From assembly GCA_023664305.1 (NCBI GenBank), contig JAMPFT010000007.1, positions 1 through 64,000 on the forward strand: a DNA stretch of 64,000 nucleotides. Reading direction: 5' to 3'. The position numbers and the translations under genes were made by a program. The notes below the pieces were generated by a model. It was not told where the DNA came from, searched no databases, and saw nothing but the letters and a program-made list of their open reading frames with translations. The DNA comes from a bacterium. GTDB lineage: Bacteria > Bacillota > Clostridia > Lachnospirales > Lachnospiraceae. Numbering within the stretch: the first letter of the stretch is position 1; each line of letters opens with the position of its first letter. This document shows positions 1,455-31,308 of this stretch, piece after piece.

Positions 1455-2774
1455 TCAGTCTCCTCCCGCAGAAACCACCGGAAAAATCAGCGCAATGTCA
1501 TACCATTCCGCATCGCTTTCAACCTCCGTCCTGCCTCCCATCCGCTTCATCATCTCCGTCACATTCTTCAGTCCGATCCCCGTCTTGGAGGTGACGGCAG
1601 GATCCGGGTTTACGGCATTTGAAAGATGCAGGGAAATTTCCCTGTCCCGGTACTCAATCCATATCTTTACAGCCGTCTGCGGATCCGCGTACTTTACAAT
1701 GTTCGAATAAAGATTATTGTTGATCCGGCCAATATATTCCGAATACAGGGACACTTTAACCGGCTCCCAGCGCAAGATTCCGGTATCGACCTTAAAACCG
1801 GCGTTTTCCAAAAGATAAACCAGCTCCGAGAGGTATTCCCCGACGGCGTATCCCGCCTCACAGGGCTCTTCCAGCCTGACCTCTTCCGTCGTGCTGGTAA
1901 GGAAATATTCAAAGAGCTGCTCGGAAAGTTCTTTGATCTCCACGGCCTTCGCGAGGGCCTTCTCCGCATACGTCCTCTCCTCCCCCACAATCCGATCGCT
2001 GTTTCGCAGGATCTCCAAATAAGCGGTCTGGCTTGTCAAGGGCGTCCGCAAATCATGGGCCATGCCAAGGAGCAGGCTTTCCTGAGATGCCTTCAGCGCC
2101 TGCTCCTTTTCCCGGGCTGCCAGAATAGCCGCCCGCATCCTGTTCAACTGCTCCGCCAGTGCGCTGACCTCGTCCCTCCCCTTGACGGTGATGCCGGAAG
2201 CGTAATCGCTCTCCTGCATTCCGGAAATTTCTCCCCGGATCAGGACAATATATCTGACTTCCTTCCTGATTCCCCAGAAAACAAAAAGGATATAAGAAAG
2301 CACTGCCGCAAACATGGCTATGATATCGACCAGGACATAATACTTTTCGGCATATCCGTTATAGATAAATACATCCGCCGGACCGTCCGCAAATTCCACC
2401 TGATAAAAATACATCCATGTGATATTCAAATCCCTCTGCACATTTCCCAATAACGTAAAGCTCCCTGTATTGGAAATCCCCACAATGGGCTGGTTTTCCC
2501 TTGATATTGTAATATAGCCGATATTTTGCGACTCAACCCAATCCATAATGCGTTCCTGATCATCGGCGCGGATATCGTTTGCAAAAATAAATTCCTGCAG
2601 CCTGCCAATTTCCTTTTCCTCCGCATTGTGTATGAAAGCAGACGTTTTAAAATAATAATCCGCATATTCGCTGCTGACATAGTAAACGGCCAGAAAAACA
2701 ACAACCGCTATCACAAAACCGCAGATGACAAGCGCTATCATTTTCCTTGTCAGGCTTTCCCTTATTTTACCCAA
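1455..2774 (-). CDS. Membrane sensor histidine kinase
   Basis: A 439-residue two-component kinase. A membrane helix lies near residues 10-33 and a second near 150-175, bracketing an extracytoplasmic sensor of about 115 residues. A HAMP-like linker (GRDEVSALAEQLNRMR) follows, then HisKA with the phospho-acceptor His near residue 240 in GMAHDLRTPLT, and an HATPase domain with an N box (NNLYSNIVKYA) and a G box (KTGIGLKNV). The G1 region is weak, as in VanS/VncS-like kinases. Its start overlaps the stop of the response regulator by eight bases, so the two are translationally coupled. The signal is unknown; the neighbouring lipoprotein could be a target or co-sensor. Confidence 0.92.
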   Translation of the reverse strand: MGKIRESLTRKMIALVICGFVIAVVVFLAVYYVSSEYADYYFKTSAFIHNAEEKEIGRLQEFIFANDIRADDQERIMDWVESQNIGYITISRENQPIVGISNTGSFTLLGNVQRDLNITWMYFYQVEFADGPADVFIYNGYAEKYYVLVDIIAMFAAVLSYILFVFWGIRKEVRYIVLIRGEISGMQESDYASGITVKGRDEVSALAEQLNRMRAAILAAREKEQALKASQESLLLGMAHDLRTPLTSQTAYLEILRNSDRIVGEERTYAEKALAKAVEIKELSEQLFEYFLTSTTEEVRLEEPCEAGYAVGEYLSELVYLLENAGFKVDTGILRWEPVKVSLYSEYIGRINNNLYSNIVKYADPQTAVKIWIEYRDREISLHLSNAVNPDPAVTSKTGIGLKNVTEMMKRMGGRTEVESDAEWYDIALIFPVVSAGGD

Positions 2775-3459
2775 TCTTGTACCCCTTCCCCCACACGGTT
2801 TTAATGATCTCCGGCTGCTGCGGATTTTCCTCGACCTTGGCGCGGATATGCTTGATATGAACCATCACGGTGTTTGCCGATGTGTACAAAAAGGGCTCCT
2901 GCCATACGCTGGTGTAGATGTTTTCTGTGGAGAAAATCTTGCCCTGATAATCCATCAGCAGTTTTAAAATCAAGTGCTCCTTTTCCGTCAGCTCGATGGG
3001 GATACCGTCCTTCCACACCAGTCTGTCTTCCGCGTTCATCCGGAGATTTCTGTAAGAGACCGTCGTGTCCCCTTTCGGCAGCTGACTGTCATAAACCCTG
3101 CTTCTCCTGATGAGCGCGCCCACTCTTGCCTTTAACTCAATATAGGAAAAGGGCTTGACCAGATAATCGTCTCCGCCCGCCCCAAAACCCTGCAGTTTAT
3201 CCATTTCCGATGATTTGGCGGTCAAAAAGAGGATGGGAACGGTTGATTTTTCCCGAATCAGTTTACAGGTCTCTATGCCGGAGAGACCGGGCATCATAAT
3301 ATCCAGTATGACAAGGGCGATACGCCCGTCCAACAGGCGCAGGCCCGCAGCACCGTCCGCCGCCTCCTCCACGCCGTAGCCCTCGCTCTGCAGCAGGATA
3401 CGGATTCCCTCCCTGATATCCCGATTGTCCTCAATGATTAAAACCGTTCCCTTCTCCAT
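2767..3459 (-). CDS. OmpR/PhoB-family response regulator
   Basis: A receiver domain (residues 1-115) with the acidic pocket IIEDN, phospho-Asp near residue 53 in VILDIMMPG, and the Lys in LVKPFSY is followed by a winged-helix DNA-binding domain (LTEKEHLILKLLM ... GKGYKIG). The start is placed at the ATG in MEKGTVLI, which has GAGG six bases upstream; an ATG four codons earlier sits directly against its purine tract and is less likely. The gene is first in the pair with the histidine kinase and has a promoter candidate 95 bases upstream. The likely role is transcription control after phosphorylation by the partner kinase. Confidence 0.93.
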   Translation of the reverse strand: MEKGTVLIIEDNRDIREGIRILLQSEGYGVEEAADGAAGLRLLDGRIALVILDIMMPGLSGIETCKLIREKSTVPILFLTAKSSEMDKLQGFGAGGDDYLVKPFSYIELKARVGALIRRSRVYDSQLPKGDTTVSYRNLRMNAEDRLVWKDGIPIELTEKEHLILKLLMDYQGKIFSTENIYTSVWQEPFLYTSANTVMVHIKHIRAKVEENPQQPEIIKTVWGKGYKIG

Positions 3460-3553
3460 ACGATACCTCATCCTCTGACCGCCTATGGCAGGGTGGCAAT
3501 GCTGCCTGCTGCCGTTTTCTCTTCAACGGAATTAATGTCTGATTTTCATTACT

Positions 3554-3581
3554 ATTATAGCTTTTGGCAAAATAAGAGCAA
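3554..3581 (-). promoter_or_regulatory. Promoter candidate of the two-component operon
   Basis: On the minus strand TTGCTC (3581-3576) and TATAAT (3559-3554) are separated by 16 bases. Transcription would run into the response regulator at 3459 with a leader of about 90 bases. A 22-bp sequence shared with a repeat at 45.8 kb lies directly upstream of the -35. Confidence 0.55.
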
Positions 3582-3582
3582 C

Positions 3583-3604
3583 TATCATCCAAATTCTATA
3601 ATAG
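3583..3604. repeat. Copy of the 22-bp ATCCAAATTCTATA repeat
   Basis: This 22-base stretch matches 45801-45822 with one change. The other location is a tandem hairpin repeat upstream of a nitroreductase. Here it sits just upstream of the two-component promoter. Confidence 0.5.
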
Positions 3605-3627
3605 GACTCCGCGGACGACTCCCGCTG

Positions 3628-4686
3628 TCAGTCTACCCTCTCATCCAGCAAGCGTAACCCGCCGTCCCCCGCCGAAAGAACCGTTATCATATCGCCCACA
3701 TGATCCGTCATGTCATCTCCGGCAGCGTACTGTCTCAGCCGTATATAGTCCTGCCCTGTCCCCTCCAGGATCTCCAGATAATACCAGCCTGTCACCGTCG
3801 CGATGGCGGATTCATAGACATTCTCTTCCTTCAGGAAAAATTCCTCTCCGCTTTTACCGTTTACAATGCGGTAACCGCTGTTTTCCCCCGTCTGTGCCTC
3901 CATCGTGTAATCGAAACCGGTGAAAAAGCCTTCCGCTATATTTGCATATTCCGTTCCGGCTTTATCCAAAAGCTGCAGGCCGCAGCATCCGTTTGCCCCC
4001 GCATACCTCATATCGAACAGCAGGAGAATTTCCGCCTCCTCATCTCCGTCAAAATCCCCCGCCAGAATGTCTATAAAGTCACAGTCCGCATCCTCAATAA
4101 TATAATCGACAGGACATCCCGAAAGCGTAAGCTTTAGCTTTTGAATGATCTCGGAGCCCTCCCGTTCCCCGGTTTTAACTGTGAGCGTATCCTCCGCGCC
4201 GTCCCCGTCCCAGTCGCCCGTAAAGGTGCCTGATTTGGACTCCGGCGCTCTGGAAGCATTATCCAGGGAATATAGGATTGGCAAGGCATCATAGGAAATG
4301 TCGGTGGCGCCTGCCGTATTTTCGGGCTCGTCTCCCTGTGCCTTGCCGTTTGAAGCCTGCCTGTTTTCTGTCTTATTCCCTTGTGCCTGTGCATCTCCTG
4401 ACCCGTCTTCCTGATCTTGCCCGTCTCCCGACTGAGCCTCCTGCATCTGTCTGACCGAAGCCTGCCCGTTCCCCGACTCGTCCCCCTGCATCTGTCCGAC
4501 CGCCTGCCCGTTTCCCAACTGAGCCTCCTGCTCCTGCCCAGCCGAAGCCTGTACATTTCCCGACTCGCCCGCGTCCCGAACCTCCCCGCCGCAGGCGGAG
4601 ACCGCCAGCGCCATTCCGCAGAACAATACCGTGAGCAACACCTTTTTTAACGCCTTTTTATAAAATGTGTCCATTTTCGTAACCAT
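3628..4686 (-). CDS. Lipoprotein with Gln/Gly-rich linker and FG-GAP-like loops
   Basis: The start is set at the ATG in MVTKMDTFYKK, which follows an AAGG tract; the frame extends further upstream without a ribosome site. A signal peptide with lipobox AVSAC gives a lipidated Cys. Next comes a low-complexity tract of about 100 residues made of GNGQ/EAQSGDG-type repeats, then a domain of about 200 residues with two acidic loops, GDWDGDGAED and GDFDGDEEAE, like the calcium-binding loops of FG-GAP/VCBS repeats. It would sit on the outer face of the membrane. Function is not recognised. It lies downstream of the two-component genes on the same strand, but a gene-free gap separates them. Confidence 0.75.
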   Translation of the reverse strand: MVTKMDTFYKKALKKVLLTVLFCGMALAVSACGGEVRDAGESGNVQASAGQEQEAQLGNGQAVGQMQGDESGNGQASVRQMQEAQSGDGQDQEDGSGDAQAQGNKTENRQASNGKAQGDEPENTAGATDISYDALPILYSLDNASRAPESKSGTFTGDWDGDGAEDTLTVKTGEREGSEIIQKLKLTLSGCPVDYIIEDADCDFIDILAGDFDGDEEAEILLLFDMRYAGANGCCGLQLLDKAGTEYANIAEGFFTGFDYTMEAQTGENSGYRIVNGKSGEEFFLKEENVYESAIATVTGWYYLEILEGTGQDYIRLRQYAAGDDMTDHVGDMITVLSAGDGGLRLLDERVD

Positions 4687-4868
4687 TTCTTTACACGCCT
4701 TTCTTTTACAAATCGTTCCTTTGCATTTTTCCGTTGTACAACTGTAAAAATCGTACACCCTGTTTCTGAAAAAGGCGCTTAAGAATTTATGAAGAAATCT
4801 GAAAAATTTCCCTTGCAGCTGCCCATAAGGACAAAAGCAAGGGAAGAGGATACATCATTGGAGTATGC

Positions 4869-4893
4869 AAAACAGACGGACTTCTGCCGTCCG
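4869..4893 (-). terminator. Rho-independent terminator after the ThuA-like gene
   Basis: On the minus strand CGGACGG and CCGTCTG form a seven-base stem (one G-U) around a seven-base loop, followed by TTTT. It starts four bases past the stop codon and ends the glycan operon. Confidence 0.7.
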
Positions 4894-4896
4894 CCC

Positions 4897-5517
4897 TCAG
4901 ACTCCCAAAAATTTCAGGGCATTTCGAATCTGGCGCAGATATGAGGGATTTCGGAAAGCTTCCCTGTCATGTCCCGGCGCAAGATAAACTACCTTCCCGC
5001 GCCCGCAGGGCAGATGCCATCCCGCCGGGTACCATTCGCCGCCGTGCCGGTATTCCAGGAAAAGTGTCATCTCCTGCGGACGGAGAAGCTCGTACCGATA
5101 AGGCTCCTCAAAAAGTTCAAAGTCCTCCGCGCCTTCTCCCAGCGTCGGATCCGTGCCGCAGTATCTGTAGGTCAGAATCCCTGCCTCCGCATGTCCCGTA
5201 AAGGCTCCGCCGTTTAGAACAAGCAGCGGCCGGGACTTCTTTGTGATGATTCCCGTGTGCAGCGTCAGCATCCGCCCGCCGTCCTCCACATATCCGCAGA
5301 GCGCCTCCTGCGCCTTCCTCGTTCCCCTGTTTTCCCAGTTATCCATATAATTGATACAGACGTCGAAGGTCTCCAGATACTTTCTCTCCAGATCGGGGTA
5401 GTCTTCCGTCTCCACCACCTCGTACCCGGAACGCAGCTCCTCCGTCAGAGGCTCCAGATTGGAGAGCGGATGCCACAGCGGCTGCGTGCTGTCTCCCAAA
5501 ACAAGAATCCTTTTCAT
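4897..5517 (-). CDS. ThuA-like domain protein
   Basis: About 206 residues with the glutamine-amidotransferase-like fold of the ThuA/trehalose-utilisation family: KRILVLGDS at the N-terminus, DVCINYMD, a GGRMLTLHTG loop, and a C-terminal GRGKVVYLAPGHD. The ATG at 5517 is preceded by GGGGG seven bases away and is preferred over an upstream ATG without a ribosome site. It follows the beta-mannosidase by 22 bases and is the last gene of the cluster. ThuA proteins often sit in sugar catabolic operons, possibly acting on keto-sugars, but a reaction has seldom been shown; no substrate is assigned here. Confidence 0.75.
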   Translation of the reverse strand: MKRILVLGDSTQPLWHPLSNLEPLTEELRSGYEVVETEDYPDLERKYLETFDVCINYMDNWENRGTRKAQEALCGYVEDGGRMLTLHTGIITKKSRPLLVLNGGAFTGHAEAGILTYRYCGTDPTLGEGAEDFELFEEPYRYELLRPQEMTLFLEYRHGGEWYPAGWHLPCGRGKVVYLAPGHDREAFRNPSYLRQIRNALKFLGV

Positions 5518-28512: not shown

Positions 28513-28940
28513 GCGCCAGCCGGGGGCAGGTTCACTGCGGACACGTTTGCACTCGGATCGGCACATAGCGGACGCTAAGCTCGAAAGGACCTCGCTAAGC
28601 GCCGATGTGCCTTTACGGTCCGCTGTGAACCTGCCCCCGACAGGCGCTGATACCTTTTCACTCGAGGCACACATAGCGGACGCTAAGCTCGAAAGGACCT
28701 CGCTAAGCGCCGATGTGCCTTTACGGTCCGCTGTGAACCTGCCCCCGACAGGCGCTGATACCTTTTCACTCGAGGCACACATAGCGGACGCTAAGCTCGA
28801 AAAGACCTCGCTAAGCGCCGATGTGACTTTACGGTCCGCTGTGAACCTGCCCCCGGCTGGCGCTGATTCTTTTTCACTCGGGTCGGCACATAGCGGACGC
28901 TAAGCTCGAAAAGACCTCGCTAAGCGCCGATGTGCCTTTA
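28513..28940. repeat. 108-bp tandem hairpin array between cls and the serpin gene
   Basis: Four units with starts near 28562, 28670, 28778 and 28887, so a period of 108-109 bases. The middle units are nearly identical. On the minus strand each carries an imperfect long hairpin bounded by GGCACAT and ATGTGCC with a CGCTTAGCG motif. A 30-base segment at 28513-28542 is the inverted complement of 28834-28863 with one change, so the array is flanked by an inverted copy of part of its own unit. The serpin stop codon lies in the last unit. Open frames through it exist because 108 is divisible by three; no ribosome site supports translation. Confidence 0.85.
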
Positions 28941-30626
28941 CGGTGCTTCCTCCCCGGCGGGATAGTTGACAATCCCCACGAACAGCGGCAGTCCGTTGCC
29001 TCCTGTGACGCAAAAGAGAAAGGGCCGATCCAGGATAAAGTTCACCTCGTCGGCGGGAGGCATCCCACCATAGTCAGCCATAACAGTAAACGCTGCGGCG
29101 GTACAGCCTTCCTCGTCAATCGTCACTCTCGCGGCGTGATTTACCTGTGAAAGAAACATGGGAAGCTCCGGGTCGGCAGTCACAGGAGAAAAATCAGACT
29201 GCCTCGGATCAAAGAGATCCGTAATCCCCAGCTTCTGCAGGCCTTCGCTCAGATCCAGCTGAGAGGAGACATCAAACTTGGGAACAGCCTTATTCACAAT
29301 AAGGTATTTTTGCTTTTCCCACTTGTCCCGGTCAGCGGTAAAGAGAAAATCCATGGCTTCTCCGTCAGAAAGCAGCTCTTCCGGAGTTACCCCTTCGTCC
29401 GGCAGAAGAAAGCACATGACGCCGCCCTCCTCGAAGGATTGGATGACAGCGGCAAATTTATCCCCCCAGTAATAGCTTTGCCCGTCTCCCTGATGCATGA
29501 AGTCCGTTTCCACATCCCCGGCGGGGGTGTGGAAGGTCTGGGGCACGGTCCTTCCCTCGAAGAACTTGCTCCTCCACTTTGCCCTGAAATAAACGGTAGT
29601 CGCCAAAGCCAGAACGGTTTCCTGATCCAGTTCCACATTCCCGGCCTGCTCCTCCAAAAGTCCTCCCGTCTGTTCACTGAGCCAGCTTTGCAAAGCCCCG
29701 TTAAGCTGATCCGATCCCATTCTGCCCTGATAAGAGGAGGCATAGAAATCTCGGGCCAGAATATCCATGGTATCCCGATTGAACTCCACAGCTTCGCTCA
29801 GCCACAGAGAAGCTGCCAGAATAGAGGTCTGCGCTCCGTCGTCCCGATAGCTGCAGTTCCACACGTCGCCGGCCTGCTGCCGCAAAGCGTCCATGCTTTC
29901 ACTGCCAAGGACGGTCAGAATCTGCTCCCGACTCTCCCCGTCCGTGAGCTGGGCAAGCATGGATAAGGCCATGTAAACATTTAAGGGGGAATAAATCCTG
30001 TTTTCTCCGCTTTGCTCCTCTCCGGTCAAAATGATCCGGGCACTCTGCGCAAAGAAGGACTGCAGGGCGGAAATATCTCCCAAATCCCGCTGGCGGGCTC
30101 TCAAATCCGCACGCCATGCGTCATATGCCTTTTCGCTGAATCCGGCCGAGCCGCTGGGATAAGGTGCCATCTCAGGGTACTGCGCCTCGGCGATGGCATA
30201 CGCCCTCAGACTGCCGTCAGGACGCAGGAAGACGCCCGCGAGCAGGGCAATCACCAACACTGCCGCAACGGCTCCCAGCCAATGCCTTCTTCTCCCGCGC
30301 TTCTGTCCTCCATGTCCCTGCTTACCTCGCCCCTGTTCCCTGCGTTCCTGTTCTCCGCGTTCCTGTTCTCCGCGTTCCTGTTCTCCATGTTCCTGTTCTC
30401 CGCGTTCCTGTTCCCTGCGTTCCTGCTTCCTGCGTTCCTGTTCTCCACGTTCCTGTTCTCCGCGTTCCTGCTTCCTGCGTTCCTGTTCTCCGCGTTCCTG
30501 TTCTCCATGTTTCTGTTCTCCGCGTTCCTGCTCCTCACATTCCCGCTCTCCCGCATCATTCTCCGCCCATTCCACCAGATCGTCCCGGATGTCGGTAATA
30601 CCGTCAAAGATATCCTGTGCATTCAT
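28938..30626 (-). CDS. Membrane-anchored serpin with anti-sigma-like N-terminus
   Basis: A 562-residue protein. Residues 1-22 (MNAQDIFDGITDIRDDLVEW) resemble the short heads of anti-sigma proteins of clostridial ECF pairs. Residues about 28-105 are a charged linker of EQERG/EQERR pentapeptides from a 15-bp DNA repeat. A single helix follows near 113-134 (WLGAVAAVLVIALLAGVFL), then a full serpin domain: NRIYSPLNVYMALSMLA, AKWRSKFFEG, the hinge DEEGCTAAAFTV, and the C-terminal DRPFLFCVTG. The reactive bond is placed about 17 residues after the first hinge Glu, near GG-M. The serpin would face outside and trap proteases. It follows the ECF sigma gene by 39 bases. GGGGGT precedes the ATG. Confidence 0.85.
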   Translation of the reverse strand: MNAQDIFDGITDIRDDLVEWAENDAGERECEEQERGEQKHGEQERGEQERRKQERGEQERGEQERRKQERREQERGEQEHGEQERGEQERGEQERREQGRGKQGHGGQKRGRRRHWLGAVAAVLVIALLAGVFLRPDGSLRAYAIAEAQYPEMAPYPSGSAGFSEKAYDAWRADLRARQRDLGDISALQSFFAQSARIILTGEEQSGENRIYSPLNVYMALSMLAQLTDGESREQILTVLGSESMDALRQQAGDVWNCSYRDDGAQTSILAASLWLSEAVEFNRDTMDILARDFYASSYQGRMGSDQLNGALQSWLSEQTGGLLEEQAGNVELDQETVLALATTVYFRAKWRSKFFEGRTVPQTFHTPAGDVETDFMHQGDGQSYYWGDKFAAVIQSFEEGGVMCFLLPDEGVTPEELLSDGEAMDFLFTADRDKWEKQKYLIVNKAVPKFDVSSQLDLSEGLQKLGITDLFDPRQSDFSPVTADPELPMFLSQVNHAARVTIDEEGCTAAAFTVMADYGGMPPADEVNFILDRPFLFCVTGGNGLPLFVGIVNYPAGEEAP

Positions 30627-30665
30627 CGTTATACCCCCGTTGCGCTATACGCGCATTTTAGTCCG

Positions 30666-31223
30666 TCAAACTTCCATTCCTTTCGCTTCCAGAAAAGCCC
30701 GAAGCTCCTTTCGCAGGCGCAGCAGACGCTGGGAGATCGCGTTGGCTTTCTCTTCCCGCTCCGCCGCCAGCCGCTTTACCGGGTCTCCGTACCAGTACCG
30801 TCGGATAAAGAGCCGCCGGTTTTCGTCCTCCAGACCGTCAAGCCACTCGCTGATCGCCTGCGCAAGCTGCTCCCGCTCCAGCTTTTCCTCCACCGTGCCG
30901 GGGGTTGGAACACAGTCCTCCAGCTCGGAAAGCAAAACCTCCACACCGCCGTACCGCTTTTGAGCGTGATCCCGCCGCCACCGGCTGACAGACAGATTTC
31001 GGGTAATACGCCCCAGAAAAGCGCTCAGACATTGCGGCCTGTCGGGAGGCATTTTGTTCCAGGCCATGTGCCAGGTATCATTGACGCACTCCTCCGCGTC
31101 CTCCCGCAGACCCAGCAGCCGCAGCGCAATAGACCGGCACAAAGCGCCGTATTTTTTGTCTGTTTCGACAATCGCCCGCTCATCCCGCCGATGATAGAGC
31201 TCCACAATTGTAAGGTCGTCCAC
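30666..31223 (-). CDS. ECF-type RNA polymerase sigma factor
   Basis: A 185-residue sigma-70 family protein: region 2 with EECVNDTWHMAWNKMPP and the LSAFLGRITRNLSVSRWRRD stretch, and region 4 with RRLFIRRYWYGDPVKRLA then KANAISQRLLRLRKEL as the recognition helix. The start is a GTG at 31223 after GGGGGGCGG. It precedes the serpin gene by 39 bases in the same direction, the usual layout of an ECF factor with its membrane anti-sigma partner. The pair is therefore proposed to sense an extracellular protease, but no binding data exist. Confidence 0.9.
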   Translation of the reverse strand: MDDLTIVELYHRRDERAIVETDKKYGALCRSIALRLLGLREDAEECVNDTWHMAWNKMPPDRPQCLSAFLGRITRNLSVSRWRRDHAQKRYGGVEVLLSELEDCVPTPGTVEEKLEREQLAQAISEWLDGLEDENRRLFIRRYWYGDPVKRLAAEREEKANAISQRLLRLRKELRAFLEAKGMEV

Positions 31224-31308
31224 GAACCGCCCCCCTTTCGGTAGAAAATACGCTGTCAGAAGTCCTTCTGTTTATATAGTCGCAAAAAATGGGGAAATAT
31301 GACAGAAA

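Follow-up and report, generated by a model that had tools for sequence, protein, structure and literature searches.

A predicted membrane serpin anti-sigma factor paired with an ECF sigma factor gene in Clostridia

Gene pair and protein architecture

The window, by which we mean the whole analysed stretch of 64,000 nucleotides, carries an ECF sigma factor gene that is followed after 39 bases by the gene of a serpin with a membrane segment, both on the minus strand. This arrangement had been reported in the original prediction and is borne out by the open reading frames 30666-31223 and 28938-30626. The two genes and the main parts of the serpin protein are as follows:

30666 to 31223, minus strand: ECF sigma factor gene, 185 aa, GTG start (open reading frame list, Pfam, TIGR02937, AlphaFold2 models)
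28938 to 30626, minus strand: gene of the membrane serpin and predicted anti-sigma factor, 562 aa (open reading frame, Pfam, conserpin match)
28959 to 30020, minus strand: serpin domain, residues 203-556 (Pfam, 192.6 bits)
30207 to 30287, minus strand: single membrane segment, residues 114-140, predicted N-in (hydropathy and charge)
30293 to 30551, minus strand: cytoplasmic linker, a 15-bp tandem repeat with GEQER units (repeat scan)

The product of 30666-31223 is assigned to the ECF factors, which have sigma regions 2 and 4 and no region 3. Its match to TIGR02937 scored 60.2 bits against a cut-off of 42.9 and that to Pfam sigma region 2 scored 35.8 (cut-off 24), the match to Pfam sigma region 4 staying below its cut-off of 25.7 with only 14.5; in AlphaFold2 models the protein forms two confidently folded helical domains. 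The genome of the window contains 13 matches to this sigma factor, counting itself. Among the 41 loci listed for sigma matches in this and related genomes, a 4-base overlap with the next gene is present in 29, and many of the next genes at sigma-match loci encode one-pass proteins with a common head.

The 562-aa protein is laid out as a short inner head, a charged repeat linker, one membrane segment and an outer serpin. It is assigned to the serpins by fold and C-terminal signature: beside the Pfam match, conserpin was its best solved relative (E 8e-31), and hinge and C-terminal signature were both found, in agreement with the full serpin proposed earlier. The single membrane helix proposed at the same time corresponds to residues 114-140, the inner flank of which is basic; hydropathy and charge thus predict, for the product of an ECF-adjacent gene, one pass with the N-terminus inside, as expected of a membrane anti-sigma factor. 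The long charged linker of that proposal is also real and consists of 13.3 copies of a 15-bp unit (30332-30530). Alignment A1 contains 18 relatives, mostly with short linkers and a few with other long ones; a repeat linker of this form is absent from all of them, and the repeat itself is therefore probably not involved in the mechanism.

Two further observations concern the surroundings of the serpin gene and the rest of the genome. Directly behind the gene, and covering its last 7 bases, lies a 108-bp tandem repeat (28562-28944, 3.5 copies, 96% match). A second serpin gene is present in the same genome (L001 734-2212, minus strand, contig C8); its product has a lipoprotein-like signal at the N-terminus, and the 3.3 kb examined there gave no ECF match.

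A cytoplasmic head shared with other ECF partners

The N-terminal part of the protein contains one further feature, which the original prediction had likened to the heads of anti-sigma factors:

30558 to 30617, minus strand: predicted sigma-binding head, residues 4-23, QDIFDGITDIRDDLVEWAEN (profile of 28 non-serpin heads; co-variation)

The profile was made from 28 heads of one-pass partners of sister ECF factors, at loci without a serpin match, which form a gap-free alignment of 20 columns. The window head fits this alignment without gaps and scored 19.2 on the profile, against -8.8 +/- 4.6 for shuffled sequences, 0 of 5000 of which scored as high, so that the proposed likeness held and the cytoplasmic segment appears to be of the kind found in other ECF partners. 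No Pfam or NCBIfam anti-sigma domain was found in residues 1-113. Class I anti-sigma domains are described in PMC7406223 as recognisable and over 50 residues long; the head, of about 20 residues, is not of that class. Behind the head of one sister protein from the same genome, among 9 scanned (7 of them own-genome), the Pfam anti-sigma domain RsgI_M was found. This sister protein (L065 1672-3417, plus strand, contig C7) has the same kind of head and also carries four PepSY stretches.

The head also varies together with the sigma factor. Over 52 pairs, the distance correlation with sigma was 0.81 for the head, 0.56 for the serpin, 0.47 for the membrane segment and 0.40 for the stalk, and the head exceeded all 300 of 300 twenty-column serpin windows, the best of which reached 0.57. 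In the 33 rows outside the subclade of the window, the head reached 0.64, against 0.28 for the membrane segment and 0.29 for the serpin. Close linkage on the DNA is not a sufficient explanation of this co-variation, as the membrane segment is encoded near the head. When single columns were compared, in the 53 non-redundant of the 55 pairs that passed the filters, the 14 variable head columns shared more information with sigma columns than did 80 sampled serpin columns (p 0.004). In AlphaFold2 models with the sigma factor tethered to the head (alignments A4 and A5), the sigma factor folds and the head blocks have pLDDT 32-55; with the head represented by only two alignment rows, no docking of the head on sigma was confident.

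Head and ECF gene across relatives

Of 138 genomes searched across the genus, 94 gave serpin matches. Within the closest group of serpins, almost every protein with a head has an ECF gene directly upstream, and the members without an ECF gene mostly start with a lipoprotein signal. Exceptions were L100, with the order head-serpin and then ECF; L130, which has a head and no ECF gene, its contig ending 0.2 kb away; L088, with an eroded head; and L108 and L109, the latter a short frame, in which neither signal nor head was seen. Upstream of the more distant serpin loci (<150 bits) an ECF match was found in 0 of 42, and free serpins therefore prevail in the wider family. The original prediction had counted a serpin that is free in most relatives as an argument against the pairing; this is the case for the distant loci and not for the closest serpins, which are mostly ECF-linked.

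A separate named set was formed by the best 80 of 572 confirmed relatives, 51 of which have an upstream ECF gene by rule, and the gene pair thus occurs outside the genome of the window; its absence there would, by the original prediction, have spoken against the reading. In this set of the best 80, the two genes overlap by 4 bases at 42 of the 51 loci, and a head was scored in 47 of the 51 serpins with an ECF gene against 1 of the 29 without (Fisher 3e-16, the rows not being independent). Most of the ECF-less serpins in the set start with lipoprotein or secretion signals. Automatic scoring, through its 45-residue limit and its choice of start codon, missed L140 and L165, in which a head is present on hand reading; in L156 an ECF-like stretch opens a 1060-residue frame. 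L160, the sole head without an adjacent ECF gene among the 29, belongs to a locus (1857-5370) with one ECF gene and then two head-serpins, of which the second was the one scored. In L154, L156, L157 and L158, which are close serpin relatives, a signal-like N-terminus was observed together with a repeat, presumably dockerin-like, where the head would be.

Two loci depart in another way. In L201 and L207 (around 3440-5509), the serpin follows an ECF gene of a different group with a 4-base overlap and has a different cytoplasmic head; by the rule used, L207 was counted among the 51 and L201 among the 29. Given the different ECF group and the different head, the serpin has been joined to a second kind of system, and, from these sequences, serpins appear to have been added to two different ECF/anti-sigma systems in Clostridia.

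In a quick tree built from 115 serpin domains, the combined ECF and head label changes 14 times, at least 6 of these changes being forced by starred branches. Head and ECF gene agree in 109 of 111 rows, with some labels set by hand and with L196, L201, L207 and L208 left out. Five independent pairs on starred branches were on average 4.8 concordant and 0.0 opposite (median p 0.06). Two sister serpins within the ECF-linked group have no adjoining ECF gene: L139, which is identical with the gene L088, has lost most of its head, and L130 has kept the head in changed form. Seventeen further family loci contain serpin frames in which no head was noticed. Among them, L231 has an ECF gene of the window's group at 212-848, 711 bases before a headless serpin frame (1559-3002), and L226 has a weak ECF-like frame between two serpins. 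The carriers comprise many Clostridia, with record titles that often point to animal guts; L161, L179 and L192 are titled as strains and not as metagenome-assembled genomes, and the carrier strain records include Flavonifractor, Pseudoflavonifractor phocaeensis and Cuneatibacter.

Taken from the sequence evidence, namely the likeness of the head, its co-occurrence with the ECF gene, its co-variation with the sigma factor and the 4-base overlap in 42 of 51 loci, the adjoining ECF factor very probably has the serpin protein as its anti-sigma factor, as had originally been proposed.

A promoter-like motif specific to the operon

Upstream of the ECF-serpin operons a common motif was recognised:

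31279 to 31304, minus strand: predicted autoregulatory promoter, TGTCA-N14-TTGCGAC (upstream of ECF-serpin operons)

The exact motif occurs once in the assembly of the window, upstream of the window operon. With one mismatch allowed, the same genome gave 3 matches and the reversed control 4, so there is no excess. Among 46 ECF-serpin operons, the motif (at most one mismatch, spacing 13 to 15) was present in 22, against 0.2 for shuffled sequences, and 24 of the 46 had no match within one mismatch; it should be read with these counts that the motif was derived from the same sequences in which it was later counted. This set contained the window and left out the near copies L150, L168 and L193 as well as L156, L207 and L140. 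Within one mismatch, the motif was found at 0 of 25 ECF-less serpins (L160, L196, L201 and L208 left out) and at 0 of 28 other ECF genes. Extended by a trailing T, it had 11 exact matches in the 138 genomes of the genus, against 9 in all for the reversed control; 7 of the 11 lie at ECF-serpin operons, each the sole match in its genome, and the remaining 4 are within the range of the reversed control. In each of six related genomes this longer motif occurs once, always at the operon. The exact motif is absent from several other ECF-serpin genomes of the genus.

From this predicted promoter we infer that the sigma factor mainly drives its own operon, in which case the serpin would also be its product. 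The motif also speaks for a different reading, in which the serpin is a mere operon neighbour and sigma output, the true anti-sigma factor is encoded elsewhere and the head has some other use. In L208 (serpin, ECF, head-serpin) and in L196 (serpin, ECF, and a head-bearing frame truncated at the contig end), the serpin that precedes the ECF gene has no clear head; in both of these loci, however, the head-serpin or the cut head-bearing frame comes after the ECF gene. Given also that the head resembles the partners of sister ECF genes and co-varies with the sigma factor, we consider this reading very unlikely.

Reactive loop and stalk

The outer part of the protein contains two features that bear on how it might act:

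29061 to 29114, minus strand: serpin hinge and reactive loop, P17 E505 to P1' M522 (hinge alignment)
30195 to 30203, minus strand: AYA motif, residues 142-144, candidate signal-peptidase site 1 just outside the membrane (A/V-x-A counts)

The hinge of inhibitory serpins has Gly at P15, Thr or Ser at P14 and small residues at P12-P9. In the window protein, Gly at P15 and Ala at P12-P10 agree with this pattern, and Cys at P14 and Phe at P9 differ from it; P1, which we take from the 17-residue rule, is Gly. Loops of the clade are alike in ECF-linked (63 rows) and unlinked (33 rows) serpins, with Gly at P15, mostly Ala at P12-P10, mostly Thr at P8, and mostly Ala, Ser or Gly at P1 and P1'; most rows, however, have Cys or Val at P14, and the P9 residue is Phe or Tyr. 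Four far ECF-linked rows (L080, L112, L114 and L116) depart more, with Gly at P12. Among the outgroup serpins, P14 is Thr in 9 of 11 (3 of the 14 rows were lost for want of a hinge match) and P9 is mostly Ala or Val, and efficient trapping is not assured in the clade because its P14 Cys or Val and P9 Phe or Tyr are unlike these residues. Small P1 residues suit elastase-like or subtilisin-like enzymes, and the small P1 and P1' residues suggest that the target protease is of one of these kinds.

Two hinge positions speak for a serpin fold that works as a binding or stability sensor without inhibiting proteases, the sigma factor answering another envelope signal: in the 63 ECF-linked rows, Ser occurs at P14 only once and Thr not at all, and all 63 have an aromatic residue at P9. 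The same rows, however, keep Gly at P15 (63/63), small residues at P12 and P10 (63/63) and Thr at P8 (55/63), with mostly small P1 and P1', and the likeness of loops with and without an ECF gene means that constraint on the loop was not lost when the new role arose. A non-inhibitory sensor thus seems quite unlikely.

Past the membrane segment, 42 of 57 ECF-linked serpins have an A/V-x-A motif, compared with 4 of 28 unlinked ones, the remaining rows of the 63 and 33 lacking the anchor motif; the difference is not significant on independent pairs, in which relatedness is allowed for, and the test is suggestive only. In RsiV homologues, an AXA motif lies just past the membrane segment, and in B. 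subtilis RsiV signal peptidase cuts there once lysozyme has bound, according to PMC4183432 and PMC5014341. AYA at residues 142-144 places the window protein, by its sequence, with the RsiV type in this respect. The outer domain of RsiV is absent, the serpin domain being the only one above the Pfam cut-off in the window protein.

Discussion

Several known systems share features with the pair reported here. SigV/RsiV of Bacillus subtilis is likewise an ECF factor with an anti-sigma factor that crosses the membrane once. The attacking enzyme is bound and inhibited by the outer domain of RsiV (RsiV also inhibits lysozyme; PMC4183432, PMC5014341), and the AXA motif of RsiV just after the membrane segment is matched by AYA. 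Unlike RsiV, the window protein has a serpin and not a lysozyme-binding domain outside, the expected enzyme is a protease, and serpins trap irreversibly. The SigI/RsgI carbohydrate sensors of Clostridium thermocellum are similar in that their anti-sigma factors have exchangeable outer sensor domains, and RsgI_M occurs in one sister protein in the genome of the window; their sensors, however, bind sugars, and the window protein has no Pfam match to RsgI_M. The CnrY system serves metal sensing. By description, the head resembles CnrY, a class II anti-sigma factor with a short cytoplasmic part of which two helices wrap the sigma factor (PMC7406223). In Bifidobacterium breve, a two-component system is linked to protease-induced expression of a serpin (PMC8012564), but there sensor and serpin are separate proteins, whereas here one protein would be both. 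Siropins and the cellulosomal serpins of Clostridia are clostridial serpins reported to act against human or subtilisin-like proteases; the passages on them mention neither a sigma link nor a sigma-binding head. No serpin anti-sigma factor was found in the open-licence titles, abstract openings and passages searched, a scope outside which the ECF reclassification paper lies; the original prediction had likewise known of none. RsiV, as described in those sources, is the precedent for ECF/anti-sigma sensors with an enzyme-inhibiting outer domain, and a serpin in that place would be what is new.

We consider it probable, with some reserve, that the two genes form a unit in which an RsiV-like serpin anti-sigma factor senses proteases and renews itself through its own operon. 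The pairing, the homology of the head, the topology, the co-variation and the operon-specific promoter motif are the parts that sequence supports; binding of sigma by the head, trapping of a protease, the release route and the function of the promoter are proposed on top of these. In the proposed mechanism, the cytoplasmic head would hold the sigma factor and one membrane helix would tie it to the outward-facing serpin. A target protease would attack the reactive loop and become trapped, the serpin would refold or be damaged, and the stalk may thereby become cleavable; it would be cut at the candidate site AYA, as signal peptidase cuts RsiV, and site-2 proteolysis would then free the sigma factor. 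Sigma would transcribe its own operon, and the used-up, single-use serpin would be replaced. The original prediction had let the change of the serpin itself alter the inner head; on the present analysis this seems less likely than an RsiV-type proteolytic release.

The main rival is a depletion sensor: the serpin would normally inhibit the site-1 protease of its own stalk, and outside proteases would exhaust the serpins until this enzyme is set free, the stalk is cut and sigma freed, making the serpin a lock and fuse and not a direct receptor. A single-use inhibitor fits such a sensor, and so do the extra serpins in or beside some ECF-serpin operons, which speak for the RsiV-like reading as well. 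Against it, when neighbours were compared at 55 loci (top 14 clusters), no family beyond the pair recurred in more than 6 of the 55, and no dedicated protease gene is therefore seen beside the pair; a general site-1 protease could still serve. The recurring families include transporters, and a further serpin-like frame was present in 4 loci. Overall, we regard depletion as unlikely.

A search for mobile elements gave matches in 14 plasmid records and 2 phage records, all of them at <60% identity; the phage records (MT835777.1 and MT835510.1, human faeces) contain serpin-like stretches with 25-28% identity.

Returning to direct sensing through an RsiV-like serpin, we offer more tentatively, as a possibility we would not yet lean on, that the unit acts as a one-shot protease counter, in which each trapped protease would destroy one sensor, each loss would free one sigma factor and a dedicated promoter would remake the sensor. 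If this is true, sensor, weapon and product would be the same protein. The RsiV-like unit in general would give bacterial serpins a part in signalling, with a bacterium that senses proteases by using up its own inhibitor. Since the record titles of its carriers often point to animal guts, it could couple gene regulation in the gut to proteases of the host or of rivals.
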